A stretch of DNA of 64,000 bases. Origin: Myxococcota bacterium. GTDB lineage: Bacteria > Myxococcota_A > UBA796 > UBA9615 > JAKLKC01. Below the pieces are notes generated by a model. That model was given only the letters and a program-made list of their open reading frames with translations, had not been told where the DNA came from and ran no database searches. The number at the start of each line of letters is the position of its first letter. Position 1 is the stretch's first letter. This document shows, piece by piece, positions 6,936 to 40,468 of the stretch. The stretch lies in NCBI GenBank assembly GCA_023150875.1, contig JAKLKC010000025.1, positions 1 through 64,000 of the forward strand, read 5' to 3'. The translations under genes were made by a program, and so were the position numbers.

Positions 6936-8149
6936 GGTGGATCCCCCTCACCCGCTTCGCCCTGCGCAGCATCCGCCGCAACCCCGGGCGCTCGGCGCTG
7001 ACCATCCTCGGCATGGTGATCGGCGTCGGATCGGTGGTGGTGATGGTGGCCATCGGCCAGGGGGCCCAGGCCCGGATCCAGGCCCAGGTGGACGCCCTCG
7101 GCACCCACCTCGTGGTGGTCACCCCGGGCGCCAGCACCCGGGGGGGCGTCAGCGGCGGCGCGGGCAGCCTGAACCGCCTGACCCTGGAGGACGCCGAGAG
7201 GCTGGAGCGGGAGGGGCTGCGCCTCTCGGCGGTGTCCCCGGTGATCTTCACCCGCACCCGGGCGGTGGGGGGAGGCGGCAACTGGCGCACCATGATCCAC
7301 GGCGTGAACAGCCGCTACCTGGAGATCCGCGACTGGCAGGTCGCGTCGGGCCGCCCCTTCGACCGGGACGACGAGCGGGCGAGGCGGAAGGTGGCCCTCC
7401 TCGGGCACACCGTCGCCGAGGCCCTCTTCCCCGAGCAGGACCCCGTGGGGCAGCAGGTGACCCTGCGGGGCGTGCCCATGAAGGTCCTGGGGGTGCTCCA
7501 GCGGAAGGGCCAGACCGCCGACGGCACCGACCAGGACGACGTGGTGCTCGTGCCCCACACCACCGTGCAGGCCCGCCTGTCGGGCTGGAGCTTCATCGCC
7601 CAGATCCTCGCCAGCGCCTGGTCCAAGGAGGACGTCCCCGAGGCGATGGCGGAGGTGAGGACGCTCATGCGCCACTCCCACCGCCTCGCGTCGTGGGAGG
7701 AGGACGACTTCACCGTCCGGGACCAGGGGGCCCTCGGGGAGGCCGCCCGGGGCACGACGGAGGTGATGACGACGCTGCTGGCCGCCATCGCCAGCATCTC
7801 GCTGCTGGTGGGCGGGATCGGCATCATGAACATCATGCTGGTGTCGGTGACGGAGAGGACCCGCGAGATCGGCATCCGCCGGGCCGTCGGGGCCCGGGGC
7901 TCGGACGTGCTCGCCCAGTTCCTGGTGGAGAGCTGCGTGCTCAGCGCCCTCGGGGGCGTGGCGGGCCTGGTGCTGGGCGTGGTCGCCACGGTTCTGGTGG
8001 GCCGCCTCACCGGCTGGGCGACGGCCATCAGCCCCTCGGTCCTGCTGCTGTCCTTCGGCTTCTCGGCGGCGGTGGGGATCTTCTTCGGCTGGTACCCCGC
8101 CCGGCGGGCCGCGGCCCTGGACCCCATCGAGGCGCTGCGGCACTCGTGA
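6932..8149 (+). CDS. MacB-like ABC permease with periplasmic core domain
   Basis: A 405-aa FtsX-type permease. It has an N-terminal transmembrane helix (about 17-39), a large periplasmic MacB_PCD domain (about 40-280), then three C-terminal helices. The conserved GGIGIMNIMLVSVTERTREI segment and the IRRAVGA motif after it are hallmarks of this family. GTG 6932 overlaps the ATPase stop. With its adaptor and ATPase it should form an efflux pump for a macrolide, peptide or lipopeptide. No outer-membrane TolC partner is encoded nearby, so a shared TolC elsewhere is likely. Confidence 0.92.
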   Translation: MRWIPLTRFALRSIRRNPGRSALTILGMVIGVGSVVVMVAIGQGAQARIQAQVDALGTHLVVVTPGASTRGGVSGGAGSLNRLTLEDAERLEREGLRLSAVSPVIFTRTRAVGGGGNWRTMIHGVNSRYLEIRDWQVASGRPFDRDDERARRKVALLGHTVAEALFPEQDPVGQQVTLRGVPMKVLGVLQRKGQTADGTDQDDVVLVPHTTVQARLSGWSFIAQILASAWSKEDVPEAMAEVRTLMRHSHRLASWEEDDFTVRDQGALGEAARGTTEVMTTLLAAIASISLLVGGIGIMNIMLVSVTERTREIGIRRAVGARGSDVLAQFLVESCVLSALGGVAGLVLGVVATVLVGRLTGWATAISPSVLLLSFGFSAAVGIFFGWYPARRAAALDPIEALRHS

Positions 8150-8235
8150 GACCCGGCGCCCCCCGGGATGGGCAGACGCGATCCGATATGGGTGTGTAGT
8201 CGCTTGCCACCCCGCGGGCGGCCCGGACGGGGCCC

Positions 8236-9768
8236 TCAGTCGTCCACCGACTCCCCCGTTTCGGCCCCCCCTCCGCCATCCGTCACCCCTCCCCGCGCCG
8301 ACGCGGGCCAGACCAGCACCGGGACCCTGCCCGAGGGCACCCGCGGGGCCACCCCCAGGCGGACCTGCCCCGTCTCGCCGTCCATGACGTCCAGGAGCGA
8401 GGCGGCGGGCAGCCCGAGGGCGGCGAGCTCCGGCGCGAGGTCGAAGGGGACGGAGGCGCCGTCCTCGCGCCACACCAGCCAGGCGGGGTGCCCTTCGCCG
8501 GCGCCGTCTCGGGGCCGGATCCGGAGCCGGTGCAGGTAGGTCCCTTCCGGATCGGGAGAGGCGACGATGGCCTCGTGGTCCACGGCCCGCTCGGGGGTGG
8601 CCCGCAGCGCCGCCGCCAGGCCCGCCAGGTGGTAGGGGTAGGGATCCCCCTCCTCGTACCGGAATGAGGAGGCGCCGGGGTTGTCGCCCTCCCAGGCCAC
8701 GAAGCGCTCGTGGACGTCGTCGAAGGTGGCGAAGCAGCCGCCGGGGGGGCGGCCTCCCGAGACGTCGCGGTAGACCACGTCCAGGAAGGTGAGCACTTCG
8801 TCGACCTCGTCGAGGTGCTCCATCCCGACCTCACCCCCCGCGTTGTCGTGGTGGAGGAAGCCGAAGACCCATCGCCGCGGCGGATCCCCGTACCGGGCCG
8901 CGGCCAGGCGCTCCAGCCAGGCCTGGAGGGCCATGACCTGGATGTGGGGCGGGGTGTTGTCCCGGTAGACGTGCAGCGGGCCGTGGGGGGCGGCGAGGCC
9001 GACCTGCCCGCGATGGGGGACGAGCACCGCGAACGCCCCGAGGTCCTCCCCGAGCAGGCTCCCCGTGGCGTAGCGCCAGGGGTTCCAGACCTCGTGGCCC
9101 AGGAGGTCGTCGGCGACGTTGTTGGGTCCCCCACCCATGATGGAGTAGCCGAAGTGGCGCATCAGGGAGTCCCCGAACGCCTGCTCCGATCCGTGGGGGG
9201 TGGCACCGGCCACGGGGGTTTCCCCCAGCGCCCAGGCGGCGAACCTGTGGTGGCCCTCCCACAGGTCCTGGGACCGGCCCTCGTCCAGCGCGGCGGTGGG
9301 GACCGAGCGCCAGTCGTGGGCTCCTTCCCACTCGATGCCGTGGCTGTGGACCCCGACGTGGTGGCCGCGGGCGAGCCAGTCCTGGACGACGCCCTGGAGC
9401 GCCCTCTCGACGACGTACTCGAAGAACTCGCCGTTGGCGTGGATGGTGGCCCGGGCGCCGTGACTCTCGAGCACCCCGAGGGTGCGCTCGATGACGTTGA
9501 AGCGCTTGCCGAAGCTGTCGTCCCGCTCCTCGACGCCTGGCTCGCCGTCCACCGAGAGGGGCTCGCCGTGGATCTTGAAGACGAGGTCGAAGGGGGGCTG
9601 CCCCCCCGGGGAGGCATCCAGGTCGGCGGCGTCGCAGAGGGGATCGTCGACGAAGGCCGGGGGATCGCCGCCGGACGACGTGGCCTCGCACGCGGCGATG
9701 GCCAGGGCGAGGAGCACGGGAGGCGCCCGTCCGGACCGGAGGCCATGGTGGGGAGCGGGAAGGCGCAC
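8236..9768 (-). CDS. Putative lipoprotein with NodB/polysaccharide-deacetylase-like fold
   Basis: Predicted 510 aa, exported: residues 1-26 are a signal peptide ending AIAAC with Cys27 as the lipidation site. Residues about 60-145 have the strand-helix pattern of the glycoside hydrolase/deacetylase superfamily: a start strand (FDLVFKIHGEP), a helix with ERTLGVLESHGARATIHANG, and HHVGVHSHG at 136-144, resembling the 'GHeigsHs' metal-binding motif of deacetylases. The first catalytic Asp pair is not clear, so enzymatic activity is uncertain. The C-terminal third looks like a separate beta-rich domain. It is convergent with the permease gene; the 86-nt gap holds only short GC repeats. Confidence 0.55.
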   Translation of the reverse strand: MRLPAPHHGLRSGRAPPVLLALAIAACEATSSGGDPPAFVDDPLCDAADLDASPGGQPPFDLVFKIHGEPLSVDGEPGVEERDDSFGKRFNVIERTLGVLESHGARATIHANGEFFEYVVERALQGVVQDWLARGHHVGVHSHGIEWEGAHDWRSVPTAALDEGRSQDLWEGHHRFAAWALGETPVAGATPHGSEQAFGDSLMRHFGYSIMGGGPNNVADDLLGHEVWNPWRYATGSLLGEDLGAFAVLVPHRGQVGLAAPHGPLHVYRDNTPPHIQVMALQAWLERLAAARYGDPPRRWVFGFLHHDNAGGEVGMEHLDEVDEVLTFLDVVYRDVSGGRPPGGCFATFDDVHERFVAWEGDNPGASSFRYEEGDPYPYHLAGLAAALRATPERAVDHEAIVASPDPEGTYLHRLRIRPRDGAGEGHPAWLVWREDGASVPFDLAPELAALGLPAASLLDVMDGETGQVRLGVAPRVPSGRVPVLVWPASARGGVTDGGGGAETGESVDD

Positions 9769-9928
9769 GGGCTCTCCGCTTATGCGGCCTCATCGTAACG
9801 CGGGGGCAGGGCGCCCGCAAACTCGAAGGACCGGAAGCGGGAGAGGGACGGCGGGGCGGGAGGGGGCGCGTGGGAGGGGAGCCCCGGGCGGCGGCCTCAG
9901 GTCGCCGCCGCCCGGGGACCGGTGGGAC

Positions 9929-10552
9929 TCAGGGACCGGTCGGGTAGCCGTAGGGGTAGTAGTAGTCGAGGGTCTCGCCCGAAACGTTGGCGAAGCCCCA
10001 GTAGTACCAGCCGTAGCCGTAGTAGCCGGCGGCGTAGTACAGCATCAGGCCGACGCTGCCGTAGTACCCGGTGTAGTAGTAGTACCCGAGGCTGACGGTC
10101 TCGCCGTCGCCCGGCGCGAAGGAGTAGTAGCAGTCGAGGGTGCTGTTGTCGTAGTCGACGGTGTAGGTCACGTCGAACGAGAACTCGCAGTCGGTGCAGG
10201 CGTCGGTGCGGTCACCGGTGGTGATGTAGCCCACGTCGCAGGTGTAGTTGCTGCCGATGGTCTCCCAGTAGTACTCGACGCCGTCCCACATGTCCCAGGC
10301 GGCGCCGAGCTCGGCGGTGCCGAGCTGGTAGGCGCCGAACACGGTGTCGTCGTCGGCGGTGTCGTCGTCGGCGGTGTCGTCGTCGGCGGTGTCGTCGTCG
10401 GCGGTGTCGTCGTCGGCGGTGTCGTCGTCGGCGGTGTCGTCGTCGTCGTCGTCGTCGTCCAGGTTGACCTGGCAGCCCGTCCCCACCAGGCCCAGGCCCA
10501 GGAGCAGCGACAGGAGGGGAGTGGCGGACCTCATCCAGCTCATCGTCGACAT
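9929..10552 (-). CDS. Lipoprotein with Asp/Thr repeat linker and Tyr-rich C-terminus
   Basis: A 207-aa protein with signal peptide and probable lipidated Cys27 (GTGC). ATG 10534, seven codons in, is an alternative start that gives a more typical leader. A linker (about 32-69) is a run of Asp followed by perfect D-D-D-T-A repeats. The mature domain has a C...CxxC...C pattern with the motif CEFSFDVTY and about 20 tyrosines near the end. It is clearly related to the next gene (10865-11653), which has CEFDFDVRY at the same place. Such linkers are common in myxobacterial surface lipoproteins and may bind Ca2+. The function is unknown. Confidence 0.75.
   Translation of the reverse strand: MSTMSWMRSATPLLSLLLGLGLVGTGCQVNLDDDDDDDDTADDDTADDDTADDDTADDDTADDDTADDDTVFGAYQLGTAELGAAWDMWDGVEYYWETIGSNYTCDVGYITTGDRTDACTDCEFSFDVTYTVDYDNSTLDCYYSFAPGDGETVSLGYYYYTGYYGSVGLMLYYAAGYYGYGWYYWGFANVSGETLDYYYPYGYPTGP
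10344..10459. repeat. 15-bp coding tandem repeat plus GTC run
   Basis: About seven tandem copies of GTGTCGTCGTCGGCG, followed by a pure GTC run. On the minus strand they encode D-D-D-T-A units and an Asp tract of the lipoprotein. The 15-bp unit keeps the frame, so copy-number change would lengthen or shorten the linker without breaking the gene. Confidence 0.9.
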
Positions 10553-26337: not shown

Positions 26338-27432
26338 ATGTCGGTCCAAGCGGGCATCGTCGGTCTGCCCAACGTCGGCAAGAGCACGATCTTCAACGCC
26401 CTCACGGCGGCGGGCGCGGAGAGCGCCAACTACCCCTTCTGCACCATCGAGCCCAACGTCGGCATCGTTCCCGTCCACGACCCGCGCCTCCAGCGGATCG
26501 AGTCGGTGATCCCGACCCAGAAGGTGATCCCGGCGGCGGTGGAGATCCTGGACATCGCGGGCCTGGTGCGGGGCGCCTCCAAGGGCGAGGGCCTGGGCAA
26601 CCAGTTCCTGGGCCACATCCGCTCGGTGGACGCCATCCTCCACGTGGTCCGCTGCTTCGAGGACCCGGACGTGGTCCACGTGGACGGCGCCGTAGACCCC
26701 CTGCGGGACATCGAGACCATCGACCTGGAGCTGGCCCTGGCGGACCTGGACTCGGCGGAGAAGCGCCTGGACAAGTACCGCAAGCAGTCCAAGGGCGGGG
26801 ACAAGGAGGCGGCCTTCCACCGGGACGTGGCGGAGAAGCTGGTGGCGTGGCTCTCCGCCGGCCACCCGGTCCGCGCCGCCTCGTTCACCCCCGAGGAGCG
26901 CGTGTCGGTCCGCGAGGCCCAGCTCCTGACCTCGAAGCCGGTGCTCTACGTCTGCAACGTGGACGAGTCGGCGGTCCCGGGCGGCAACGCCCACACCGAG
27001 CGCGTCCGCGCCCACGCCCAGCGCCACGGCGCCGGCTCCGTGGTCCTCTCGGGCAAGATCGAGGCCGAGATCGCCGAGCTGGCCCCGGGCGAGCGCCTGG
27101 CCTTCCTCCACGACCTGGGCCTGGAAGAGCCCGGCCTGAACCTCCTGGCCCGGGAGGCCTACCGCCTCCTGGGCCTCCAGACCTACTTCACCGCCGGCCC
27201 CAAGGAGATCCGCGCCTGGACCGTCCCCATCGGCTGCAAGGCCCCCCAGGCCGCCGGCGTCATCCACACCGACTTCGAGCGCGGCTTCATCCGCGCCGAG
27301 GTCTACACCGTCCCCGACCTCCTCGCCTGCGGCTCCGAAGCCGCCCTCAAGTCCAAGGGCCTCCTGCGGGTGGAGGGCAAGGAGTACGTCGTCCAGGACG
27401 GCGACGTGATGCACTTCCGGTTCAACGTGTGA
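26338..27432 (+). CDS. ychF: Redox-regulated ATPase YchF (Obg-like)
   Basis: Encodes 364 aa (E. coli YchF has 363). The P-loop GLPNVGKS at 9-16, switch region with the DIAGLV motif (G3), and CNVDE in place of the GTPase NKxD motif give the adenine preference typical of YchF. A helical insert and a C-terminal TGS domain (ending [10 protein letters not shown]) complete the family plan. It is a ribosome-associated ATPase linked to oxidative-stress control. It converges with the histidine phosphatase gene, only 9 nt away. Confidence 0.96.
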
Positions 27433-27441
27433 GCGGTTCGC

Positions 27442-28101
27442 TCAGCCCCACGCCAAGGGACGACGCCGCCCACGGTACTCGGCCTGCACCATGGCCCCAT
27501 CGGCGACGAGGACGAGCGCCTCCAGGAAGAGGGGCCAGTCCAGCGGGCCGAGCGGGACACCCAGCGCGTGTGCCGCGGTCGCGGTGACCAGCGAGTCATG
27601 GGTGACGAAGACGTGTACCCCGGGGCGCGCGTCCGCGGTCGCCAGCATGTGGGCCACAAGACGGCGTGCGGCCGCTCGTGGGTCCGCCAGGCCGGGCAGG
27701 GCCACTCCCCGGACCAACGCCTCCATCACCGCTTCATGGCCCCGGCGACGCCAGACCTCCCACGCAACACGCCCGTCCAGAACGTAGACGCCGGGGCCGC
27801 CCAGCGCGGTGTCCGGGGCAGGGTGCACGGGCGATCCTGACCCGTCCACGACGGCGTCAGCGGTCTGCATGCAGCGCAGGACCGGGCTTGACCGGGCGGT
27901 ACGTAACCGCGACCCGATCCGCTCCCCCAGGGTCCGTGCCAGACTGACGCCCTCCTCCAGGAGCGGCGTCTCGTCCCCCGGGCCGTCCGGTGGCAGAGGG
28001 CCCCTCGCCGAGTGGCGGAGAAGCAGGACGACCGCGGCGTCCGGGCTCGCCTCATCGATGGCCCGCACCGTGGAAGTCGGTATGACCAGATTCGAAGTCA
28101 C
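27442..28101 (-). CDS. Histidine phosphatase superfamily protein, last gene of the rSAM-GT operon
   Basis: A 219-aa protein with LLLRHSARG (Arg29, His30 as the phospho-accepting RH motif), SSPVLRCMQTADAV (second catalytic Arg) and VTHDS (second His). This matches phosphoglycerate-mutase-like phosphatases. ATG 28101 overlaps the stop of the WG-repeat methyltransferase (ATGA), so it is translated with the biosynthetic operon. A role as phosphatase on a sugar-phosphate or phosphorylated product of that pathway is inferred; a stress or signalling phosphatase is also possible. Confidence 0.8.
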   Translation of the reverse strand: MTSNLVIPTSTVRAIDEASPDAAVVLLLRHSARGPLPPDGPGDETPLLEEGVSLARTLGERIGSRLRTARSSPVLRCMQTADAVVDGSGSPVHPAPDTALGGPGVYVLDGRVAWEVWRRRGHEAVMEALVRGVALPGLADPRAAARRLVAHMLATADARPGVHVFVTHDSLVTATAAHALGVPLGPLDWPLFLEALVLVADGAMVQAEYRGRRRPLAWG

Positions 28102-29762
28102 GCCGGGACCCCCACGAGGACCGTGCAGATCCCTGGAAGCGGGCGAGCTTCGGCGATCCGCAGGCCCGCGGCTCGGAAGAGCCGATCGAACTCGGCCCTC
28201 GTTCGTTCCCGGCCGCCCGTCGCCAACATCATGTGGAGGCCGAGCAGGGAGCCGGAGAACCCTCGCTCCGGCCGGACCAGTTCCACGACGTAGATGCGAC
28301 CACCGGCGTCGAGGGCGCGCGCGGCATTGCGGAGGACCGTCGCAGCGCGGTCGTCCTCCCAGTCATGGAGCACCCGGGCCAGGACGATCCCGTCACCGCG
28401 GACCGGCCAGGGGGCGAAGAGGTCCGCCTCCACGAAGCACGCTCGGTCCCCACCCAAAGCCCCGCCGCGGCCGAGAGCGGCAACTTCCGGGCGTTCGAGG
28501 ACGGTGACGTCGCACCCGGGCAGCGCCCGCGTGATCGACGCCGCGAGTGCACCTGTTCCCCCGCCGGCGTCGATCAGGCGACGGTGTCCGGGCTCGAGCA
28601 CGGCCGGCACGGCCGCATAGTCGTGCGCGGCATAGGGCGAGATGGCGTGGTGGTAGGCCGCGACCCGCCCGGGGTCCCGCGCCATGTCGGCGAAAGGATC
28701 GGCCGCATGCCAGTCCGGGTCTCGGAGCGCGCGATCCAGGTCACGCCACGGCGCCCTGCCGTCGGTCGCCCAGTAGCGGCACGCCTCGGCCAGGGACGAG
28801 GGGTGCTCCCGACGAAGATGGTCGCCGCTCTCGGTCGCGCGCCACTCGTCCCCGACGCGATCGACCAGACCCGTCTCCGCCAGCGCGGCCAGTAGGGTCC
28901 GGAGGCGCTCGGCGAGGACACCGTCTCCCATCGTCCTGTCCTCCAGCGGAAGCCTCTCGAACAATCCCAACGACACTGCGGCGGTCGCGGCCTCGGATCG
29001 CCACCACGCCACCAGCTCCCCCGACGCGGCCTGGAGGCCCGAGCGTAGGGCTCCACGCAGCTCGACGACGGTCTCGCCTCGCTCGTCGATCACCTCCATG
29101 CCTCCATCCCACCGCTCGACGCGGGACTGGCCATTGTAGAAGGGCTCCACGGCGGCGAACCGGCGCGGATAGGCCGGAGCGCCGGTCGCGTCCACGTGGG
29201 TCCAGCCGGACGCGTCGCGGGCGCGGGCGAAGCCCTTGTGATACACGTCGAGATCGAGGAACCACCGGCGGTGCACCATCCTCCCTGCGCGATCGACGTG
29301 GGTCGACCAACCGTCTTCCCCTTGAACCACCGCGACGCCATCGCGGTAGTCGCCCGCGTACCGCCATCTCGCGGCTGAAACGGGAGCCCCCGTCTCGTCG
29401 AGGTGGAGATACCCTCCGTCCCCCGCACGCACCGCGCTCCGGCCCTCCTGGTAGTTCCCGCACCATGCGTATCGCTCCGGGTACAGTGCGCGGCCCCCGG
29501 GAAGGACGTGGTGCCATCCCGAGACGCCGGCTACGGCGGCCCTCCCCTCGTAGAACCCGAAGACCTGGAGGTGTCGCGCGGGGTAGGCGGCGAGCCCGTG
29601 CTCGTCGATGTGGAAGGCGCCGTCGTCCGCCGAGACCGGCGCCAGGCCGGGCACATGGTACTTCCACACTCTCCGGAACCGGGCCGGGTAGAGCGGTACT
29701 CCGTCCAGGAGGTGGTGGGTGCCCTCGGGAGCTACCTTTGCGCGGGGCCACGAGGCGGTCAC
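28098..29762 (-). CDS. WG-repeat protein fused to a class I O-methyltransferase
   Basis: A 554-aa two-part protein from GTG 29762, which overlaps the stop of the radical SAM gene. Residues about 15-235 contain some six WG-like repeats of 34-35 aa with a pattern of W/F-x-H-V/I-D-x-x-G, YPxRF/W, FYEGR or YRDG, as in the KWG/WG beta-repeat family. Residues 240-554 are a Methyltransf_2 domain: DAGGGTG (398-404), LERPEVAALGRG and LHDWEDD (465-471), as in plant and polyketide O-methyltransferases. The helical dimerisation part precedes motif I. It probably methylates a hydroxyl on the pathway product, with the repeat domain binding substrate or a partner. The fusion is uncommon. Confidence 0.85.
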   Translation of the reverse strand: MTASWPRAKVAPEGTHHLLDGVPLYPARFRRVWKYHVPGLAPVSADDGAFHIDEHGLAAYPARHLQVFGFYEGRAAVAGVSGWHHVLPGGRALYPERYAWCGNYQEGRSAVRAGDGGYLHLDETGAPVSAARWRYAGDYRDGVAVVQGEDGWSTHVDRAGRMVHRRWFLDLDVYHKGFARARDASGWTHVDATGAPAYPRRFAAVEPFYNGQSRVERWDGGMEVIDERGETVVELRGALRSGLQAASGELVAWWRSEAATAAVSLGLFERLPLEDRTMGDGVLAERLRTLLAALAETGLVDRVGDEWRATESGDHLRREHPSSLAEACRYWATDGRAPWRDLDRALRDPDWHAADPFADMARDPGRVAAYHHAISPYAAHDYAAVPAVLEPGHRRLIDAGGGTGALAASITRALPGCDVTVLERPEVAALGRGGALGGDRACFVEADLFAPWPVRGDGIVLARVLHDWEDDRAATVLRNAARALDAGGRIYVVELVRPERGFSGSLLGLHMMLATGGRERTRAEFDRLFRAAGLRIAEARPLPGICTVLVGVPA

Positions 29763-32104
29763 GACGACACCGGACGGCGCATGTTGCAGCCGAGGCAGAG
29801 GGCCCGGGTGTGGTAGGTGGCGACGAGGCCGCGGTAGCGTCCGCCGTTCCAGATCTCGCGGATCCCGACGTCGTGGAGGTTGCCGAAGTCGCCCAGCGCC
29901 CTCCGCTCGGCGTCGGGGGCGCAGCAGGGGTTGAACCTTCCCTCGGCGCCGATCCACGCCTCCTGCCCGAGGAACGGGCACTTCCCACCCGGGGCGACGT
30001 CGGTGGGCGCGGTGGGGTCGAGGGGGAAGAGGTTGTCCAACATGACTTCCCGCCCGTCCGGGAGGCGATGCTCCTCTGCCGCGGCGCGCGCCTCGTCGAC
30101 CGCTTTGTTCCACCTCCCGACGGCCTCGGCGCTCCGCCGCATCGAGAGGCCGGCGATGGTGTCCCAGTGGACCCAGAGGTGGTGCCCCTTGACACGGTCC
30201 ACCCCCAGGGACGCCGCTAGGCGGACGACGTCCGCAAGCTCGCCCACGTTCGAGTCCAAGTACGTCAGTTGGAAGGTGACGCGGCATCGGTCGCCCCCCG
30301 AGGCGGCGTGGCGATCCCGCACGGCGACGAAGTCACGGACGTTGGCGAGCATCCTCTCCCAGCGGGCCCCGATCATGATCGCCTCCTGCGTCTCCTTGCG
30401 GGCGCCATTCCAGGAGACCTTCACGTCGGAGGCGACCGGGACGATGCGCTCGGCCCACGCGGTCGCGCCCAGCCTGGGAAAGGTCCCGTTCGTGGTGAGA
30501 TTGAGCTTGACTCCGTGCCTCTCGCAGAGGGTCAGGATCTCCTCGAAGTCGGCGTAGAGGAGGGGCTCTCCCATCGTCGACGGGATCACCTCCTTCAGCC
30601 CGGTGCCCCGGGACTCCTCCAGCACGCGGCGGATCGTCTCGACCGGCATGCGTCTCGGAGGGCGCCGATCCGCCCGGCGGGTGACCTGGAGGGGGCTGTG
30701 GGCACTGTGCTCCTCGCACATGATGCAACGCAGGTTGCAGTCATCCGGGTTGGTGTCGAACGTGATGCGCCACGGCCCGGGCAGCACGGTGACCCGGGAG
30801 GAGTCGCGGCCCTCGACGACCTCGCGATACAGGTCCTCCACGGCTCGAACGTGCTCGGCGATGTCGGGGACGTCTCCTTCGGGATGGTGGAGGTAGCCGC
30901 GCGCGCCCAGGCTCGATGCCAATCCGGGTTCGTCCACCAGGCGCTGCATCTGCCGCGCGAGGTCCTCGGCGTCGCGGTGCCGGAACAGGAGCCCGTTGAC
31001 CTCGTGGGCGACGTACTCCGCCATCCCGCCCACGTCAGCGGTCACTACCGGTACGCGCGCGCCCTGCGCCTCGTGGATCACGAGGGGGGAGTTCTCCAGC
31101 CAGACCGATGGGACGACGATGGCGTCGACCTGGTCGAAGACCTCCGCGACGATTCCCTGGTTCCGGTACTCCGGAAGCCACTCCACCCGCTGAGCGGCGC
31201 TCCCCGGCAGAGCCGCGGCCATGGTGCGCAGCGCCTCGGTGTCTTGCCCGCGAGGGCGGCCGTAGACGCGAAGGCGCGGCTCGCCCTGGAGTGTGCCGAA
31301 GGCGGAGACGAGCAGGTGGATCCCCTTGGCGGGGATGTGCGTGCCGATGTAACCGAACGTGAACGGCTCGCCCGGCACACGGCACCGACCCGACAGTCGG
31401 CTCCGGTCGAAGCCGTAGTCCAGGTACCGGACCTTGGCCTGGGGCAGGCCGAAGTCCCTCACGAAGCGGCCCGCCAGGTCGCGAGCGGGGGCGATGAACA
31501 GGTCGACGAGGTCCGCGACCTCCCGAACGTGGGCCATCCGGCGCGACACCCAGTCCGCCCACGTTGCGGCGTCGCGCGCCTCCTCGGCGGGATCGCCCGA
31601 GAAGTATCGGGCGTAGCACCGGCGCGCGCACTTCTCGTCCTCCTGCCCGTCGCAGGCCGCCCACAGGTCCAGGGGATCTTCGGGGAACATCTGCATGAGC
31701 TGTCCCCGCGGACACATGAGCCAGTAGTCGTGCAGGGTGAAGACGACGGGGACCTGACGACGGGCAGCCTCGCGGATCAGGGAGGTGGACAGGTGGTTCA
31801 GGTGGCCGACGTGGACGACGTCCGGGCGCATGCGCCCGAGCACCTCGGCGAAGCGCTGGTCGACGCCCTCGTGGCGGTAGCGGTCACGGAACCGCGGCAT
31901 GTTGACGACGTGGAGCCGGATCCTGGGGTCGTCGGGTTCGGTTTCCTCGCACAGACGGTAGTCGGGGCCGAACGAGTCCTCTTCCCGCGTGAAGACCTCG
32001 ACGTGGTGTCGCTCGGCCAGGGCCCGGCACAGGGTCTGGCTGTAGACCTCGGAGCCGGCGTTGTAGCGCATGGGGTAGCCGTGGATGACCTTCAGGATCC
32101 TCAT
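29759..32104 (-). CDS. Fusion of GT4 glycosyltransferase with radical SAM/SPASM domain
   Basis: A 781-aa protein. Residues 1-430 are a GT-B glycosyltransferase of family 4: an N-terminal GSEVYSQTL loop, GYIGTHIPAKGIHLL (251-265) and a donor-site segment SVWLENSPLVIHEAQGARVP (333-352) with the conserved Glu. Residues about 440-700 are a radical SAM domain with C-x3-C-x2-C (Cys456, 460, 463) and GEP (512-514). A SPASM-like region has Cys709, Cys727, Cys728, Cys770 and Cys773. The ATG overlaps the epimerase stop and its stop overlaps the methyltransferase start. It could transfer and rework a sugar on a shared substrate; the reaction is not known. Confidence 0.9.
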   Translation of the reverse strand: MRILKVIHGYPMRYNAGSEVYSQTLCRALAERHHVEVFTREEDSFGPDYRLCEETEPDDPRIRLHVVNMPRFRDRYRHEGVDQRFAEVLGRMRPDVVHVGHLNHLSTSLIREAARRQVPVVFTLHDYWLMCPRGQLMQMFPEDPLDLWAACDGQEDEKCARRCYARYFSGDPAEEARDAATWADWVSRRMAHVREVADLVDLFIAPARDLAGRFVRDFGLPQAKVRYLDYGFDRSRLSGRCRVPGEPFTFGYIGTHIPAKGIHLLVSAFGTLQGEPRLRVYGRPRGQDTEALRTMAAALPGSAAQRVEWLPEYRNQGIVAEVFDQVDAIVVPSVWLENSPLVIHEAQGARVPVVTADVGGMAEYVAHEVNGLLFRHRDAEDLARQMQRLVDEPGLASSLGARGYLHHPEGDVPDIAEHVRAVEDLYREVVEGRDSSRVTVLPGPWRITFDTNPDDCNLRCIMCEEHSAHSPLQVTRRADRRPPRRMPVETIRRVLEESRGTGLKEVIPSTMGEPLLYADFEEILTLCERHGVKLNLTTNGTFPRLGATAWAERIVPVASDVKVSWNGARKETQEAIMIGARWERMLANVRDFVAVRDRHAASGGDRCRVTFQLTYLDSNVGELADVVRLAASLGVDRVKGHHLWVHWDTIAGLSMRRSAEAVGRWNKAVDEARAAAEEHRLPDGREVMLDNLFPLDPTAPTDVAPGGKCPFLGQEAWIGAEGRFNPCCAPDAERRALGDFGNLHDVGIREIWNGGRYRGLVATYHTRALCLGCNMRRPVSS

Positions 32105-33015
32105 GGACGCGCCTCCCGAGACGGCGGACCGGGGTGGGACAGGTCGAGGATGAGGGCGGCGATGCCCTCCTCGAGCGAAACGCGGGGGAACCAGCCAAGC
32201 AGTTCTCGCGCGAGGCGGGGATCCCCGACGAACCGAGAGACCTCGTGCCGGGGCGGCTCGAGGTAGGCGCAGTCGACGGGGCGTCGCACCGCGCGGACGA
32301 CCGTCGCGCTGAGGCCCGCGAGCGTCGTCTCGATGCCGCTGACCAGGTTGACGGGAGGGACCCGCTCGTCGCCGTCGTCGAGCAGGTGCATCATTCGGAG
32401 GAGCCCGTCGACCACGTCGTCGACGTGCACCAGGTCGACGGAACGCGCTGGGCCATGCACCGTGATACGGCGGGCCCCCAGGGCCGCGGCGACCCACGCG
32501 GGCACCACCCGGTCTGGGTGGTCCCATGGAGCGCCATACACGTTACCGAGACGGGCGACCGCCGTGCGGAGACCCATCCCTCGCGCCTCCCCCAGGACGA
32601 GCCGCTCGCCGGAAGCCTTGGTGCGGCCGTAGGTGTTGACGGGGAAGATCGGCGCCGTTTCGGCGACCGGGAGAGTGAGCGGTTCCCCATAGACCTCGCG
32701 ACTGCTGGCGAACAGGACCCAGGGGCGATCCCGTTGCTCCGCCGCGGCATGGAGGACGCGGATCGTCCCGTCGCGGTTGACCCGCCATGCCCTCACCGGA
32801 TCGCGCTCGGCCTCACCGACGCGCGACACCGCCGCGAGATGGATGACCCCGCGACACCCCCGGATGGCGCGGACGAGCCGGTCGTGCCTCAGGATGTCGT
32901 CAGCCGAATGGACCGCGGTGTCGTAGGTCCGGACCCCGCTTCCCTCCCGGCGGAGTGCACGCACGACCGCGCGGCCGATGACCCCGCCGGCCCCCGTGAC
33001 GAGGACGGGCCTCAT
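32101..33015 (-). CDS. NAD-dependent epimerase/dehydratase (extended SDR)
   Basis: Encodes 304 aa. The Rossmann signature TGAGGVIG (7-14), the catalytic Ser (about 104-105 in SSREVYG) and Y129-x3-K133 are all intact, as in nucleotide-sugar epimerases and dehydratases. It starts in a 4-nt overlap with the small DUF4258-like gene and ends in a 4-nt overlap with the GT-radical SAM gene. It probably prepares the nucleotide sugar used by the GT4 domain; the exact sugar cannot be told. Confidence 0.88.
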   Translation of the reverse strand: MRPVLVTGAGGVIGRAVVRALRREGSGVRTYDTAVHSADDILRHDRLVRAIRGCRGVIHLAAVSRVGEAERDPVRAWRVNRDGTIRVLHAAAEQRDRPWVLFASSREVYGEPLTLPVAETAPIFPVNTYGRTKASGERLVLGEARGMGLRTAVARLGNVYGAPWDHPDRVVPAWVAAALGARRITVHGPARSVDLVHVDDVVDGLLRMMHLLDDGDERVPPVNLVSGIETTLAGLSATVVRAVRRPVDCAYLEPPRHEVSRFVGDPRLARELLGWFPRVSLEEGIAALILDLSHPGPPSREARP

Positions 33016-33311
33016 CGCTCGCCCCAGATCCGCACGGCGAACGCCCGCTGGGCGGGACCGAACCGGAGGTAGGTGACGAGGGTCCAGGGCAGGTGGACGC
33101 TCGGGTGCGAACGCACCACCACCAGGACGCCCCGGCGGTCGTCAGCGAGGAAGTACCGGTCAAGGACGCCCTCGAGGGATCGCCCCAGCAGGGGAGCGAC
33201 CATCGCCGAATCGACCTCCACGGCACGCTCGAGGATTCGGAGCGCCTCCGGGGTGCCGATGTCGTGGTCGTGGACTCCGAGCCGGGCGCGGGCGTGCCGG
33301 GTGACGTGCAC
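33012..33311 (-). CDS. Small DUF4258-like protein, first gene of the operon
   Basis: About 99 aa from GTG 33311, with an in-frame ATG much further upstream (33485) as an alternative. The sequence begins VTRHARARLGVHDHDIGT and has a later strand DRRGVLVVVRSHPSVH and TLVTYLRFG, which fits the DUF4258/RelE-like pattern (H-A-x-x-R near the N-terminus, V-V-V then T-x-Y). Its TGA overlaps the epimerase ATG, so it is coupled to the pathway. It might be a regulatory or processing protein. The call is tentative because the gene is short. Confidence 0.5.
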   Translation of the reverse strand: MHVTRHARARLGVHDHDIGTPEALRILERAVEVDSAMVAPLLGRSLEGVLDRYFLADDRRGVLVVVRSHPSVHLPWTLVTYLRFGPAQRAFAVRIWGER

Positions 33312-33688
33312 TCCACGGGGCCGAGCACATGAGTCGGAACCCGCATGCACGCGAGAGGAAGGTGCCACGGGCACCCACCTCTTCGTGCGGCGGTTACCGT
33401 CCGTCTCACGGGAAGATCTGGACGCGCGGGGGTGCTTGCCGACCCGATGGCGGGCCGACCGACGGAAGCCGGGGATGTGGCGCATGGACGGACACTCCAG
33501 AGGTCCTGTAGCAGCCAGCAGACCGACGGCACCCCGATAGGGGTCGCCTGGAGCATGCGCGCGATGCGGCCGAGGTCTTCTGGCTGGGGGTCGGGGAGTA
33601 GTCTGCTCCGAAACGGTACCGCCCCCTCGCCCGCTCGCGCGGGCGCCCTGACCCCATCAGGACGAGGGGGGTGGTAACGTTCGGGAGC

Positions 33689-33718
33689 AGGATAGTCACG
33701 GTGGGAACCGGGAGTCAA
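33689..33718 (-). promoter_or_regulatory. Candidate promoter of the rSAM-GT operon; 33312-33891 otherwise without a confident gene
   Basis: On the minus strand TTGACT (33713-33718), an 18-nt spacer and TATCCT (33689-33694), reading toward the operon with a leader of about 370 nt to GTG 33311. The leader has short open frames on the minus strand, one starting near 33485 and continuous with the DUF4258-like gene, but none is clearly coding. The rest of the 580-nt gap up to the HEAT-like gene is GC-rich without a recognised element; no tRNA was found. Confidence 0.55.
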
Positions 33719-33891
33719 GTGGAAATCTCATGGAGCGGTTGCCGGCCGGGGGCGCACTCACCCTCCGCCCTGCGCGAGTCAGACTCCCTTCGGGACCCGC
33801 CGTCTTTCCTCAGCCCCGCAAGGGGGCTTGAACGGTCGCCGCCAAGTCACACCCGAATCGGGGACCTCGGCCCTGGCGAGGTGGCGGGCGG

Positions 33892-34551
33892 TCACGCCCC
33901 CCGAAGCTCCTCCAACAGCGCCTCCGCCTTCCCGACGTCGAACCGGGGACACGACGCGTCCTCGCGCACCTCGGTCCGGCCCGCCGCCAACCGCTCGAGG
34001 AGGGCGAGGGCCGTCGGGTCCGCGTCGCGCGTGACGTCCAGCAGGCGGACGAGGAGGTTCGCATCTCGGGGGTGCACCGGGCTGTACTCGGCCTCCTCCA
34101 CGATCCGCTCCACGAGCATCGGCAGGGCCCGGGGGGCGAGTTCCACGAGGACGGCCTCGTAGTCCGTCCCGTCGTCGCCCCACGCCGACGTGTCCGGCCA
34201 GGTGTTGACGAGCGCCTGGACGGCCTCGTCGGTCCCGATCCCCTGGAGGGCCTCCGCCGCCGCGCCCTCGGACCCGAAACGGCTGGCGGCGTGGAGGACG
34301 AACTCGAGCCATGGGATGGCCCGGGGATCGCCCAGCGCGCCGAGGAGGCGGACCAGCGTCTCCTCGTGGGCCGCCCACTTCGGGTTCGGACGGGCGCCCT
34401 CGTGGGGTTCGCCGCCGACGGAGAGGGCGCGGATCACGGCCTCGAAGGCGTCGGTGCCGAGGTCCCGGACGGCGACGACGAGATCGTCCCAGCCCAGGTC
34501 CTCGTCCTCGTGCTTCCGGAGCAGGCGTTCGAGTGGGCGGTCGGGCTTCAA
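33892..34551 (-). CDS. HEAT-repeat-like protein
   Basis: A 219-aa product from TTG 34551, which follows CGGAGG by 6 nt. It consists of paired helices such as LVRLLGALGDPRAIPWLEFV and ALQGIGTDEAVQALVN, with the D-P-R/D-E-A turns typical of HEAT/PBS-lyase-like repeats. No catalytic residues are seen. It is divergent from the PD-(D/E)XK gene and reads toward the biosynthetic operon's promoter region. A protein-interaction role, perhaps as immunity or adaptor protein in the accessory block, is only a guess. Confidence 0.6.
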   Translation of the reverse strand: MKPDRPLERLLRKHEDEDLGWDDLVVAVRDLGTDAFEAVIRALSVGGEPHEGARPNPKWAAHEETLVRLLGALGDPRAIPWLEFVLHAASRFGSEGAAAEALQGIGTDEAVQALVNTWPDTSAWGDDGTDYEAVLVELAPRALPMLVERIVEEAEYSPVHPRDANLLVRLLDVTRDADPTALALLERLAAGRTEVREDASCPRFDVGKAEALLEELRGA

Positions 34552-36779: not shown

Positions 36780-39011
36780 GTGAACCTCCCGCCCCGGGAG
36801 CCCGTGCGCGAGACCACGACACAGGAGAGCGTCCGCGAGGCCGTGGACGGCGGGGATGGGGTGCTCGCGGATGCCGCCGCGGCGGGGGATCTGCCCCCGT
36901 GGCTCCTGCCGTGGCTGGTCGAGCTGGAGCGACGCCAGGTCCGACGCTACGGGCGCGCCGGGATCACCACCCAGGTCGCGTCGGCGCTGGAGCACGCCGC
37001 CCTGGGCAGGGTGCCCGCCGGGGCCGGCGGGGTGGACACCTCGGCCGACGCGGCGCGGTCCCCCCGCGTGTTCCTGCGGGAGCTGCGACTGGTCAACTTC
37101 CGGCAGTTCGCCGAGGCGCGGATCGACTTCACCGAGCAGCCCTCGCGCCCGGTGACCCTGGTGGAGGCCCAGAACGGCTTCGGCAAGTCGCACCTCGTCG
37201 AGGCCCTGCGCTTCGCCCTCGTCGATTACCTCGCCCGGCCCGGGCCCGGGGCCCGGGGCTCCTTCGACACCCTGCTGCACCGATACGCCCAGGGCGAGAA
37301 GCCCCACCTGGAGGTCCACGTCGCGCTGGAGATCGACGGCGACGCGGTGCTCGTGTGGCGACGACTCTCCTTCCGGCGGTCCGGCTCGGGCTTCGCCGCC
37401 GAGGGACGTCCCACCATGAGCGTCCGGATCCCGGGAAGGACGAACCCTCTCCAGGACTCCGAGGCCACCGACTGGCTGTCGCATCGCCTGCCCCCCGCGG
37501 TGGTCGGCTACTTCGTGTTCGATGCCGAGAGCCAGGTCGTCCAGGAGCTGTCCGGCCAGGCCGGCGAGCGCCTCCCCGAGGTCAAGGGGCAGGTGGAGGC
37601 GGCCATCGGGGCCAGGTCCGTCCGAGACGCCGCCCGCCGCGTCCGGGAACGGGAGGCCGCGATCCGCGCCGATCTGGGCGAGCTGCGCCGGGAGCGCACG
37701 CCCGAGCAGCTCGCGGCCCGCCTCGCGGAGATCGGCTCCGCGCGGGCAGCGACCGAGGTCAAGGTGGCGGAGGCGCAGGCGCGGGCCGGGGAGGCCCGTC
37801 TCCGCATCGACGAGATCGAGCGCCTGCTGGGGAGCCGGCCTGGCCCCCCCAGCGGAGACGGGCCCATCGCCGCTCCCGGCGACGACGCCCGCCTCGCCGA
37901 CCTGCACGCGGAGATCGAGCGCCTCCGGGGCATCGACCTCGCCGGGGTCGTCGATGACCTCCCCCTGGCCCTGCTCCAGCCGATCCTGGGCGAGACCAGG
38001 CCGCGGCGGGCGGCCGTCGAGGACACTCCCGCGCTCCGGCGCGCCCTCGACGTCGTCGCCGACGCCGTGGCCCGGGGCGCGTTCCCGTGGGCACGGCCCG
38101 GCCCCGTCGAGGGCATCCGCGCCGACCTGGTCGCCGCGGTGGGCCTGCCTCCGAGCCCGTCCGAGGCGCTCCTGGAGCTGGCCCGGCGCTCCCGGTTGGC
38201 CCGGCAACGGTTGGAGGGCTCCGGCCTGGGGCGCCTGCCCGCGGCCCTGGCCGAGGCGCGGGAACTGGAAGCTCGGACGCGGGACCGGCCGCCCCCTTCC
38301 CCCGACGGGCCCGAAGAGGGGCGGGCGCTGTGGGCGGAGCGCGACCGGAGGCGGGGGGAGGAGCTGGCCGCCCTCCAGGAGGATGAGCTTGGACGCGGTC
38401 GGCTGGCGGAACTGGACGCGGAGGCGCAGGAGCTGGAGCGGCTGCGGGGACCATCCCAGGAGACGGCGCGGCGGCGGTCGTCCCTGGAGCGACAGGCGCA
38501 ACTGGCCCGGGCCGCCGGAGTGGCCCTGGACGCCGCGGCGGACGCGATGAGGCAGGGGAGCCTGCGCGCCCTCCAGCGGGCGGCCTCGGCGGCGCTGCAC
38601 CGGACCACCAACAAGCCCGACCTGTTCCACGCCATCGAGTTCGACCCCGACACCCTGCGCTACCGGGTCGTCGACCCCGATGGCCATCCGGTGCCCCCCG
38701 ACCGCTCCACCGGCGAGCGCACCGTCCTGGCCCTCGCCCTGGTCACCGGCCTCCAGAGGGCGTCGGGCCTCGAGTTCCCCCTCGTCATGGAGGCTCCCCT
38801 CAAGCCGCTGGATCCCGTCCACCAGACCAAGGTCGTGACCGAGCTCCTGGCGAGCCGCGGCCACCAGACGATCCTCCTCGTCAAGCCCGGCGAGATCCCG
38901 GAGTACCTGCTGGGCGTCGTGTCGGCCCGGGTGGGGCGCCGCTTCACGCTCCGCCGTCCCATCGGCCAACGGGACCTCACCGAGGTGGTGGCCGACGGGG
39001 GGACTCCGTGA
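36780..39011 (+). CDS. DndD-like SMC/Rad50-type ATPase
   Basis: Encodes 743 aa from GTG 36780; GTG 36804, with GGGAG nearby, is possible. A helical lead (1-95) precedes the ATPase head: FLRELRLVNFRQFAEARIDF, P-loop AQNGFGKS (130-137, first Gly replaced by Ala) and FVFDAE (245-250), matching the 'FFFDGE' motif of DndD. A coiled-coil region (about 265-350 and 460-590) follows. The C-terminal half-head has STGER (643-647, ABC signature) and FPLVMEAPLKPLD (666-678), where DndD has I-I-D-T-P-L. Such ATPases act on DNA in phosphorothioation or defence systems. Its stop overlaps the next GTG. Confidence 0.8.
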   Translation: MNLPPREPVRETTTQESVREAVDGGDGVLADAAAAGDLPPWLLPWLVELERRQVRRYGRAGITTQVASALEHAALGRVPAGAGGVDTSADAARSPRVFLRELRLVNFRQFAEARIDFTEQPSRPVTLVEAQNGFGKSHLVEALRFALVDYLARPGPGARGSFDTLLHRYAQGEKPHLEVHVALEIDGDAVLVWRRLSFRRSGSGFAAEGRPTMSVRIPGRTNPLQDSEATDWLSHRLPPAVVGYFVFDAESQVVQELSGQAGERLPEVKGQVEAAIGARSVRDAARRVREREAAIRADLGELRRERTPEQLAARLAEIGSARAATEVKVAEAQARAGEARLRIDEIERLLGSRPGPPSGDGPIAAPGDDARLADLHAEIERLRGIDLAGVVDDLPLALLQPILGETRPRRAAVEDTPALRRALDVVADAVARGAFPWARPGPVEGIRADLVAAVGLPPSPSEALLELARRSRLARQRLEGSGLGRLPAALAEARELEARTRDRPPPSPDGPEEGRALWAERDRRRGEELAALQEDELGRGRLAELDAEAQELERLRGPSQETARRRSSLERQAQLARAAGVALDAAADAMRQGSLRALQRAASAALHRTTNKPDLFHAIEFDPDTLRYRVVDPDGHPVPPDRSTGERTVLALALVTGLQRASGLEFPLVMEAPLKPLDPVHQTKVVTELLASRGHQTILLVKPGEIPEYLLGVVSARVGRRFTLRRPIGQRDLTEVVADGGTP

Positions 39012-40468
39012 CGGCCGAATTCGATCCCGCGGCGTTCCGGGACCGGCTGGCGCGGGACCTGGACCTGCCCGCCGCGTCCTTGGACCGCCTGGCGGTGGCG
39101 CTCGGGCTCGCCCACGGCGTCTCCGCCACCCGCCCGGTCGCGGTCCATCCCGACCTCGACGGGTTCGCCGGCGGGCCGGTGTTCGCCCCCCTGCTGGCGG
39201 CGCGGGGCGTCGATGGCGGTCCCACCCTGGCCCGGGCGGCGGCGGCGGGCTACGCGCTCCTGTCCGATGGGGTGGACGCGGCGGACGGGGACGCGCGGGT
39301 GGCGCTGGCCCGGCTCGCCGCGGGGCCGGCCGCGAGTCCCGTCGGCCCCGCCCCGGGCGCGGTCGCCCCCATTACGGTCCCCATCGGGGAGGGCTCTAGC
39401 GGCCCGGTGACCTGGACCGTCAACCGGGAGTCGGGACGCCGCACCAACGCCAACGTCCGGATCGCCGGCGCCCAGGGCAAGGGCAAGACGCAGTTCCTCA
39501 TGCACCTCCTGGCCGCCATCGCCGCGAGGTCGCCGCGCACCGGACTCATCCTGCTCGACTACAAGGGCGATCTGTCGGCGGACGCGCCGTTCGTCGCCGC
39601 GGTCGGCGCACGGGTGATCCGGCCCGAGCGCGAGCCGGTGCCCATCAACCCCTTCGACGTGCCCAGCGAGGTCAACGTGCGCCTGGTGCCCGCCGAGGTC
39701 GCCGAGCTGCTGGCCTCGCTCCAGCCGGGCATGGGCCAGGTCCAGCGCCTGCTGGTCCGCCGGGGGCTGGAGGCGGCCTACGGCGAGTCGGTCAGCGCCG
39801 GAGGCCCGGGCCCGACGGCGCGGCAGGTGGCGGCGGCGGTCGCCGAGGTCTACGCGGGGGAGGCGCGCGCCGCCGACTCGGTGACGGCGTGGATGGACCA
39901 CCTCGCCGAGCTGGGTCTGTTCGCGGAGCGCACCGCGGGCTCGGCCGAGGACTTCCTCCGCGGCCGGTGGATCATCGACCTCTCAGCGCTCCAGTCCCTG
40001 AGGAACGTGGTCGCGTTCGTGCTCCTGCACTGGACCTCCCGCGCGGTCCAGGCCCTGCCCGACTCGACCCTCGCCCCCGGCGCCATCCGCGAGATCCGCA
40101 GCATCGTGGCCGTCGACGAGGCCCACCACTACCTGCGTGCCCGGTGCCGCCCGGTCCTCGACCTGCTCCGGATCGGCCGTTCCAAGGGCGTCCCGGTGTT
40201 CCTCTCGAGCCAGAGCCTGTCGGACTTCAAGGAGCACACCGAGACCGACCAGCTCTTCGCCGGCACCTACGTGCTCGGTCACGGCATGCCCCCCGACGCC
40301 CGGACCGTCCAGGGCGCGCTGGGCCTGCCGGCGGCGGAGGCCGCCCGCGCCGCGGCCCGGACCTGCCAGCTCGAACAGTTCGAAGCGCTGGCCCCCGACG
40401 ACGCGGGGAGCGCCCGCCCCGCCCCCCTGAAGCTCCGGGCGTTCTTCGAACGACGCTGGCGCCCCTGA
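39008..40468 (+). CDS. FtsK/HerA-like DNA-translocase ATPase, N-terminus possibly DndE-like
   Basis: A 486-aa protein from GTG 39008 overlapping the previous stop. Residues 1-105 are helical and may be distantly DndE-like (LDLPAASLDRLAVALGLAHG). The ATPase core has Walker A GAQGKGKT (154-161), a strand LILLDYKGDLS (180-190), Walker B VAVDEAHH (367-374) and FLSSQSLSDF (398-407), the pattern of FtsK/HerA/VirB4-type hexameric motors. It should work as a DNA pump or remodeller together with the DndD-like protein. The gene order SMC-like ATPase then FtsK/HerA ATPase is suggestive of a defence complex. Confidence 0.78.
   Translation: MTAEFDPAAFRDRLARDLDLPAASLDRLAVALGLAHGVSATRPVAVHPDLDGFAGGPVFAPLLAARGVDGGPTLARAAAAGYALLSDGVDAADGDARVALARLAAGPAASPVGPAPGAVAPITVPIGEGSSGPVTWTVNRESGRRTNANVRIAGAQGKGKTQFLMHLLAAIAARSPRTGLILLDYKGDLSADAPFVAAVGARVIRPEREPVPINPFDVPSEVNVRLVPAEVAELLASLQPGMGQVQRLLVRRGLEAAYGESVSAGGPGPTARQVAAAVAEVYAGEARAADSVTAWMDHLAELGLFAERTAGSAEDFLRGRWIIDLSALQSLRNVVAFVLLHWTSRAVQALPDSTLAPGAIREIRSIVAVDEAHHYLRARCRPVLDLLRIGRSKGVPVFLSSQSLSDFKEHTETDQLFAGTYVLGHGMPPDARTVQGALGLPAAEAARAAARTCQLEQFEALAPDDAGSARPAPLKLRAFFERRWRP

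Follow-up and report, generated by a model that had tools for sequence, protein, structure and literature searches.

The locus studied here raises the question of what a glycosyltransferase (GT) and a radical S-adenosylmethionine (SAM) enzyme do together in one polypeptide, and of how their production is governed. It lies in a 64,000-nucleotide stretch of a Myxococcota genome (contig JAKLKC010000025.1, positions 1 to 64,000; hereafter the window), for which a preliminary description, made without database searches, had reported a GT4 glycosyltransferase joined to a radical SAM enzyme at 29759-32104, strand unstated. The gene is as reported, on the reverse strand and encoding 781 amino acids; that description mentioned neither the operon around it nor the RNA leader. 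The GT::radical SAM layout is not new, since it has been published for the Wolbachia protein UC3 (WD0613) (PMC9203015, PMC4701759); what is new is a structured leader RNA of about 195 nt, located at 33684-33494 in front of the operon.

The fusion protein and its join

The GT half of the fusion covers residues 1-435 (30800-32104, reverse strand), and the radical SAM half residues 440-781 (29762-30784, reverse strand). Searched separately, the halves are recognized independently by Pfam: the first matches Glyco_transf_4 (residues 17-235) and Glycos_transf_1 (243-404; 4.9e-23), and the second Radical_SAM (455-592; 2.5e-14) and SPASM (709-774; 8.3e-8). Alignment and Foldseek agree with these assignments, and an AlphaFold2 model of the whole 781-residue chain has a pLDDT of 86.8 and a pTM of 0.85. 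The glutamates of the EX7E motif (E337 and E345) are invariant in 19 homologues, including the copies of phage WO and Arsenophonus; by family profile, EX7E motif and fold, this half is a retaining GT4 glycosyltransferase (GT-B), with predicted transfer activity.

In the second half, the C-x3-C-x2-C motif (C456/C460/C463) stands where the preliminary description had placed it, the GEP motif is at 512, and the five C-terminal cysteines are C709, C727, C728, C770, and C773; these eight cysteines are invariant across an alignment of 23 homologues from Myxococcota, Proteobacteria, Planctomycetota, Verrucomicrobiota, Chlamydiota, Ignavibacteriota and one Thermoplasmata metagenome-assembled genome (MAG). 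Motif, Radical_SAM profile and fold place this half in the radical SAM superfamily. Despite the Pfam SPASM match, only the five C-terminal cysteines listed above are conserved, not the approximately seven of a SPASM domain with two auxiliary clusters. Taking the BtrN-type Twitch cysteine spacing, C-x(~17)-C...C-x2-C, as a yardstick, we found C709-x17-C727 and C770-x2-C773 to be invariant, and four or five conserved C-terminal cysteines fit one (predicted) auxiliary cluster. The fusion thus shares with the SPASM/Twitch enzymes (SuiB, SkfB, PqqE, anSME, and BtrN) a radical SAM core followed by a C-terminal Fe-S domain fold, but differs from them in having four or five conserved C-terminal cysteines, and the Pfam scan gave no peptide-recognition domain.

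The G+C content at third codon positions is about 0.9 on either side of the join (0.90 for one half and 0.92 for the other), and therefore a single frame is coding throughout. The fused form is kept, free of stops, in full-length homologues (50-75% identity) from many unrelated genomes. A scan with peptides of the window protein, using one genome per species, gave 36 loci, and a separate search of relatives added about ten more genomes with full-length copies, some of which the named loci already cover. Fused halves occur in 27 of the 35 informative named loci that span the join, and the fusion is conserved in gene order; the other eight (L049-L056) have two neighboring genes, in which the homologous stretches are mostly 22-26 nt apart with a shifted frame. 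These proportions are not prevalences, because the scan peptides came from the window protein and favor its close relatives. Separate, adjacent GT and radical SAM genes are found in Chlamydiae, Ignavibacteria and Arsenophonus plasmids. Many of the loci are MAG contigs, and the fused ones include the complete chromosomes NZ_CP114040, NZ_CP012670, and NZ_CP012673, with finished Sorangium and Nannocystis chromosomes among them. One Nannocystis pusilla contig (L041:6942-12011) has a single open frame running from the short-chain dehydrogenase/reductase (SDR) gene to the O-methyltransferase, with frameshift-like breaks in the radical SAM match (sequencing error or real).

A structured leader RNA in front of the cassette

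Conserved DNA on the 5′ side of small open reading frames (ORFs) in several of these gene cassettes covaries as RNA. A covariance model (R1) built from eight loci, with the window left out, finds the window copy (33494-33684, reverse strand) with 45.2 bits and E=1.1e-8 genome-wide (E-values from such home-made RNA models are rough), as the sole match in its own genome. The RNA folds into two multi-helix domains and ends at the Shine-Dalgarno sequence of the first gene. In an alignment of 17 leader sequences, 92.3% of the cells pair, and 41 of the 49 pairs have changed on both sides; none of 500 shuffles matches this covariation, and shifting the partners by one to three columns leaves 19-22 pairs (the alignment was fitted to the model). 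The element is therefore a conserved, covarying, structured 5′ leader, as expected of a riboswitch. Leaders from eight loci had no match in Rfam 15 at gathering thresholds, and scanning the window at E<=1 gave nothing beyond two implausible weak matches elsewhere, which rules out a known Rfam family; the leader is a candidate new RNA family, uncatalogued in Rfam 15.

A refined model (R2), searched against 71 genomes of the class, was positive in 7 of 12 genomes with the cassette and in none of 59 without it (Fisher p=6e-7); this test speaks mainly to the absence of the RNA elsewhere, because five of the seven copies sat in the R2 training set. Within the fetched set, every locus found with R2 had also been found with R1. 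Besides the window, the carriers are L008, L010, L021, L023, L024, L026, L028, L033, L035, L036, L037, L038, L040, L042, L046, L047, and L106. The last of these, from genome G065, stood outside model building, and its RNA precedes the same small protein as in the window, an SDR and the start of a GT; genome G022 has two cassette fragments and two RNAs. A general riboswitch serving many loci is unsupported: each cassette has a single RNA, and the scanned genomes gave no other confident copy.

The 3′ part of the leader contains a pairing that may bear on translation. Its partners are the Shine-Dalgarno sequence directly before the first start codon and a loop that contains GCTCC at most loci; in the window, the segment CTGGAG (33495-33500, reverse strand) is modeled to pair with CTCCAG (at about 33548-33553). 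The two sides change together, for example TTTCTCC/GGAGAAA in L024, CGCTCC/GGAGCG in L028, and CTGCTCGGC/GCCGAGCAG in L021 and L042, and each locus pairs better with its own partner than with partners swapped between loci (permutation p=3e-4, uncorrected for the relatedness of the loci). A second long-range pairing, GGGTC/GACCC, appears to covary, judged by eye. By its modeled structure, the leader looks able to switch translation on or off. Like the translational riboswitches known in Rfam 15, it is a structured 5′ leader with a pseudoknot that could occlude the Shine-Dalgarno sequence; unlike them, it has no Rfam match and is confined to the GT/radical SAM cassette in the genomes searched. 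Just upstream lies a promoter-like site, TTGACT-18-TATCCT (33689-33718, reverse strand), the only such site within the 7.4 kb from 26800 to 34200, where 0.1 is expected; at 14 of 15 loci, a promoter-like site stops 0-7 nt short of the 5′ end of the RNA, so that transcription probably starts at the leader (in the window, near 33682).

The operon and its published relatives

The leader is followed by five consecutive genes on the reverse strand, and every junction between them is a 4-nt overlap. The first gene (33012-33485) encodes 157 amino acids; family searches with it were negative, and homologues are found in L022 (41%) and L106 (52% over 98 amino acids). The second (32101-33015) encodes an SDR resembling NAD-dependent sugar epimerases/dehydratases (Pfam Epimerase, 2e-39; the best NCBIfam match is GalE, below the cut-off of that model), and SDR genes recur upstream of the GT in other loci. 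Downstream of the fusion is a WG-repeat::O-methyltransferase gene (28098-29762; Methyltransf_2, 7.8e-29, scored on a longer frame), followed by a gene of the histidine phosphatase superfamily (27442-28101; His_Phos_1, 1.1e-10).

The set of SDR, fusion, WG and phosphatase genes recurs across phyla. The WG domain, 41-65% identical across phyla and without a match in the PDB by sequence, is the most constant partner, and its attachment varies: it is joined to an O-methyltransferase, or is a separate gene, and in L021-L023 there follows a class II aldolase gene that includes a WG domain. Tailoring domains are thus exchangeable between cassettes. The variant in L021 (7713-11341), L022 and L023 has, besides the class II aldolase, a carbamoyltransferase gene and two additional radical SAM genes of the SPASM type. 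Phosphatase homologues in other loci often carry, or stand before, a nucleotidyltransferase-like domain; for example, in L024 (9346-10698) and L029 (11790-13325) the histidine phosphatase continues into a second domain that, on visual inspection, resembles a nucleotidyltransferase (GGAFKSLLTGRPPRDLDLW), a half without a Pfam match. Beside the cassette in the window (36780-40468, forward strand) are genes resembling a DndD/PbeC ATPase and the C-terminal part of DndH, a possible defense-related pair.

A tblastn search against phages returned Wolbachia phage WO, with 49.9% identity over the full length of the fusion, in a region annotated as glycosyl transferase and moaA-nifB-pqqE. UC3 (WD0613) has been described as a glycosyltransferase fused to a radical SAM domain (PMC9203015), and WD0612-WD0614 as an SDR, a GT::rSAM::SPASM protein and a KWG::O-methyltransferase, which have been seen as proteins and have homologues on Rickettsia plasmids (PMC4701759). 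The window operon has the same order of SDR, GT::radical SAM and WG/KWG::O-methyltransferase as UC2-UC4 of this Undecim Cluster and its Rickettsia plasmid copies. It differs in lacking the dioxygenase, the ABC transporter and the threonine aldolases, in having no phage or other UC genes recognized nearby, and in having the histidine phosphatase and the RNA leader, the latter undetected in the phage WO record. It is therefore not an Undecim Cluster, a contiguous eleven-gene island of phage WO, of which only the UC2-UC4 equivalents are present; of the remaining UC genes, the related free-living loci gave only weak PhyH, ABC and UGD matches. The functions of the cluster were still called unknown in 2025 (PMC12801941). 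Our literature search found no characterized enzyme with the GT-radical SAM layout and no homologue with a demonstrated function, so the preliminary description was right that none is characterized, and had missed that the layout is published.

A proposed glycoside pathway and its rivals

Starting from the fold families, the invariant catalytic motifs, the operon layout and the covarying, cassette-confined RNA, we propose, with about an even chance of being right, that the fusion is the two-step enzyme of a dedicated, RNA-regulated glycoside pathway, in which radical chemistry alters the glycoside once the sugar has been transferred. The SDR would supply or adjust a nucleoside diphosphate sugar, and the GT4 half, working with retention, would pass the sugar on to an acceptor. 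Hydrogen abstraction by the Twitch-type radical SAM half, from that sugar or from the acceptor next to it, would come next and lead to oxidation, epimerization or decarboxylation. The WG-repeat partner may hold or present the substrate, and its exchangeable attached domain (O-methyltransferase here, class II aldolase elsewhere) may help to finish the product, which accessory enzymes (phosphatase, carbamoyltransferase, dioxygenase, and aldolases dependent on pyridoxal phosphate) would complete. Transcription would begin at the leader RNA, whose pseudoknot could mask the Shine-Dalgarno sequence of the first gene, so that the whole translationally coupled operon would be switchable, in response to whatever ligand the RNA may sense.

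We favor a small glycoside with a sugar modified after transfer because of the conserved coupling of the halves, the SDR, the exchangeable tailoring genes and a precedent in BlsE. The highest TM-score (0.69/0.71) among the listed fold matches of the radical SAM half is that of BlsE, and DesII and BtrN are also neighbors, which makes a radical step on the glycosylated product plausible by analogy. In blasticidin S biosynthesis, glycosylation, with BlsD as the GT, precedes a radical SAM decarboxylation by BlsE. BlsD and BlsE are separate proteins, and the resemblance of our protein to BlsE is at the fold level only (18% identity). The likeness lies in the order of events: the substrate of BlsE is cytosylglucuronic acid, whose sugar has already been attached by glycosylation (PMC3715490).

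Several points weigh against the glycoside pathway. The top fold matches of the radical SAM half include the peptide enzymes SuiB, SkfB, and PqqE, and since it resembles both peptide and sugar/nucleoside enzymes, the fold alone cannot decide the substrate. Its sequence is weakly similar to any characterized radical SAM enzyme (profiles give weak anSME matches at best). The substrates, product and enzymatic steps of the pathway are putative. Riboswitch action is read from structure only, and no leader copy is detectable in the Wolbachia, Arsenophonus and chlamydial cassettes, nor in several of the Myxococcota.

The peptide enzymes among the fold matches suggest that the fusion might instead mature a ribosomally synthesized and post-translationally modified peptide (RiPP) or a carrier protein, with the WG-repeat protein and the small protein encoded behind the leader as the candidates. 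Peptides are common substrates of SPASM/Twitch radical SAM enzymes, and in 11 loci the first gene encodes a small protein with the motif DNRANQLNPxxxAYxxSRG, at times repeated (e.g., L024:4089-4334, L026:3073-3318, L037:6722-7006, and L035:2479-2736, among others); in 40 cassette genomes, all 11 strong matches to this ORF lie at the cassette. Two of these ORFs tested have no Pfam family, and the literature searched holds nothing on the peptide. However, the motif ORF was not found in the window genome or in most cassettes, and its family also stands alone in a cassette-free genome (L081; a wider NDQRSNVxNPNN family occurs in L077-L079), which rules it out as an obligatory substrate. No precursor peptide was identified in the window, where the first gene of the operon and the motif family are unrelated, and in L036 and L023 the leader runs straight into the GT or the SDR gene. 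Together with the lack of a peptide-recognition domain in the Pfam scan, this leaves RiPP-like maturation unlikely; since the motif ORF is absent or alone elsewhere and the leader can precede the GT or SDR directly, we take the RNA to be more constant than the small ORFs, which we regard as optional.

The GT might also add a sugar to an envelope glycan, such as a surface polysaccharide or lipopolysaccharide (LPS), which the radical SAM half would modify. This role has been proposed for the Undecim Cluster (PMC9203015), the GT half is ExpE7-like (PMC4701759), and an SDR epimerase is a neighbor. But the conserved core has no polymerase, flippase or lipid carrier glycosyltransferase, and the nearest solved folds of the GT half (MshA, BshA, and GlgM) include small-acceptor retaining GT4s, namely MshA and BshA, though the LPS and glycan glycosyltransferases PglA, WaaG, and WbnH appear too; we consider envelope decoration improbable.

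That the halves are fused for co-expression only, and act at separate, non-consecutive steps, is in keeping with the split forms, which work without a covalent link in several lineages. Against it, the halves are fused or adjacent in every lineage sampled, both arrangements occur within one clade, and the tree requires at least three changes between them (the fused Wolbachia form is nested in a clade of split forms, with weak deep branches); this fits close functional coupling, and we regard mere co-expression as very unlikely. An assembly or frameshift artifact has practically no chance of explaining the join, a missed stop or a join unique to this assembly being ruled out by the identical join in the 27 informative named loci, complete chromosomes included, and nothing in the window speaks for it, while Arsenophonus shows the reverse problem, with two intact ORFs left unannotated. 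The deposited annotation of plasmids CP132904 and CP132902 omits the GT and radical SAM genes, which in CP132904 (L075) are two overlapping frames, 7828-9177 (GT) and 9174-10196 (radical SAM); this plasmid also bears panBCE, dioxygenase and aldolase-like genes.

Returning to the glycoside pathway, the window and its relatives represent a compact version, in free-living bacteria, of a core shared with Wolbachia. Tentatively, the leader could be a new, pathway-dedicated class of riboswitch that senses a product, intermediate or cosubstrate and controls a previously unknown kind of natural product, which a single polypeptide would build by glycosyl transfer with subsequent radical chemistry; in Wolbachia, Rickettsia and Arsenophonus, which have the same enzyme core, that core may serve host association. 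Some carriers are culturable (Ramlibacter, Myxococcus, Sorangium, Nannocystis, and Ectothiorhodospira), making deletion and metabolomics feasible, and the leader RNA, if it binds a ligand, would point directly to the metabolite.

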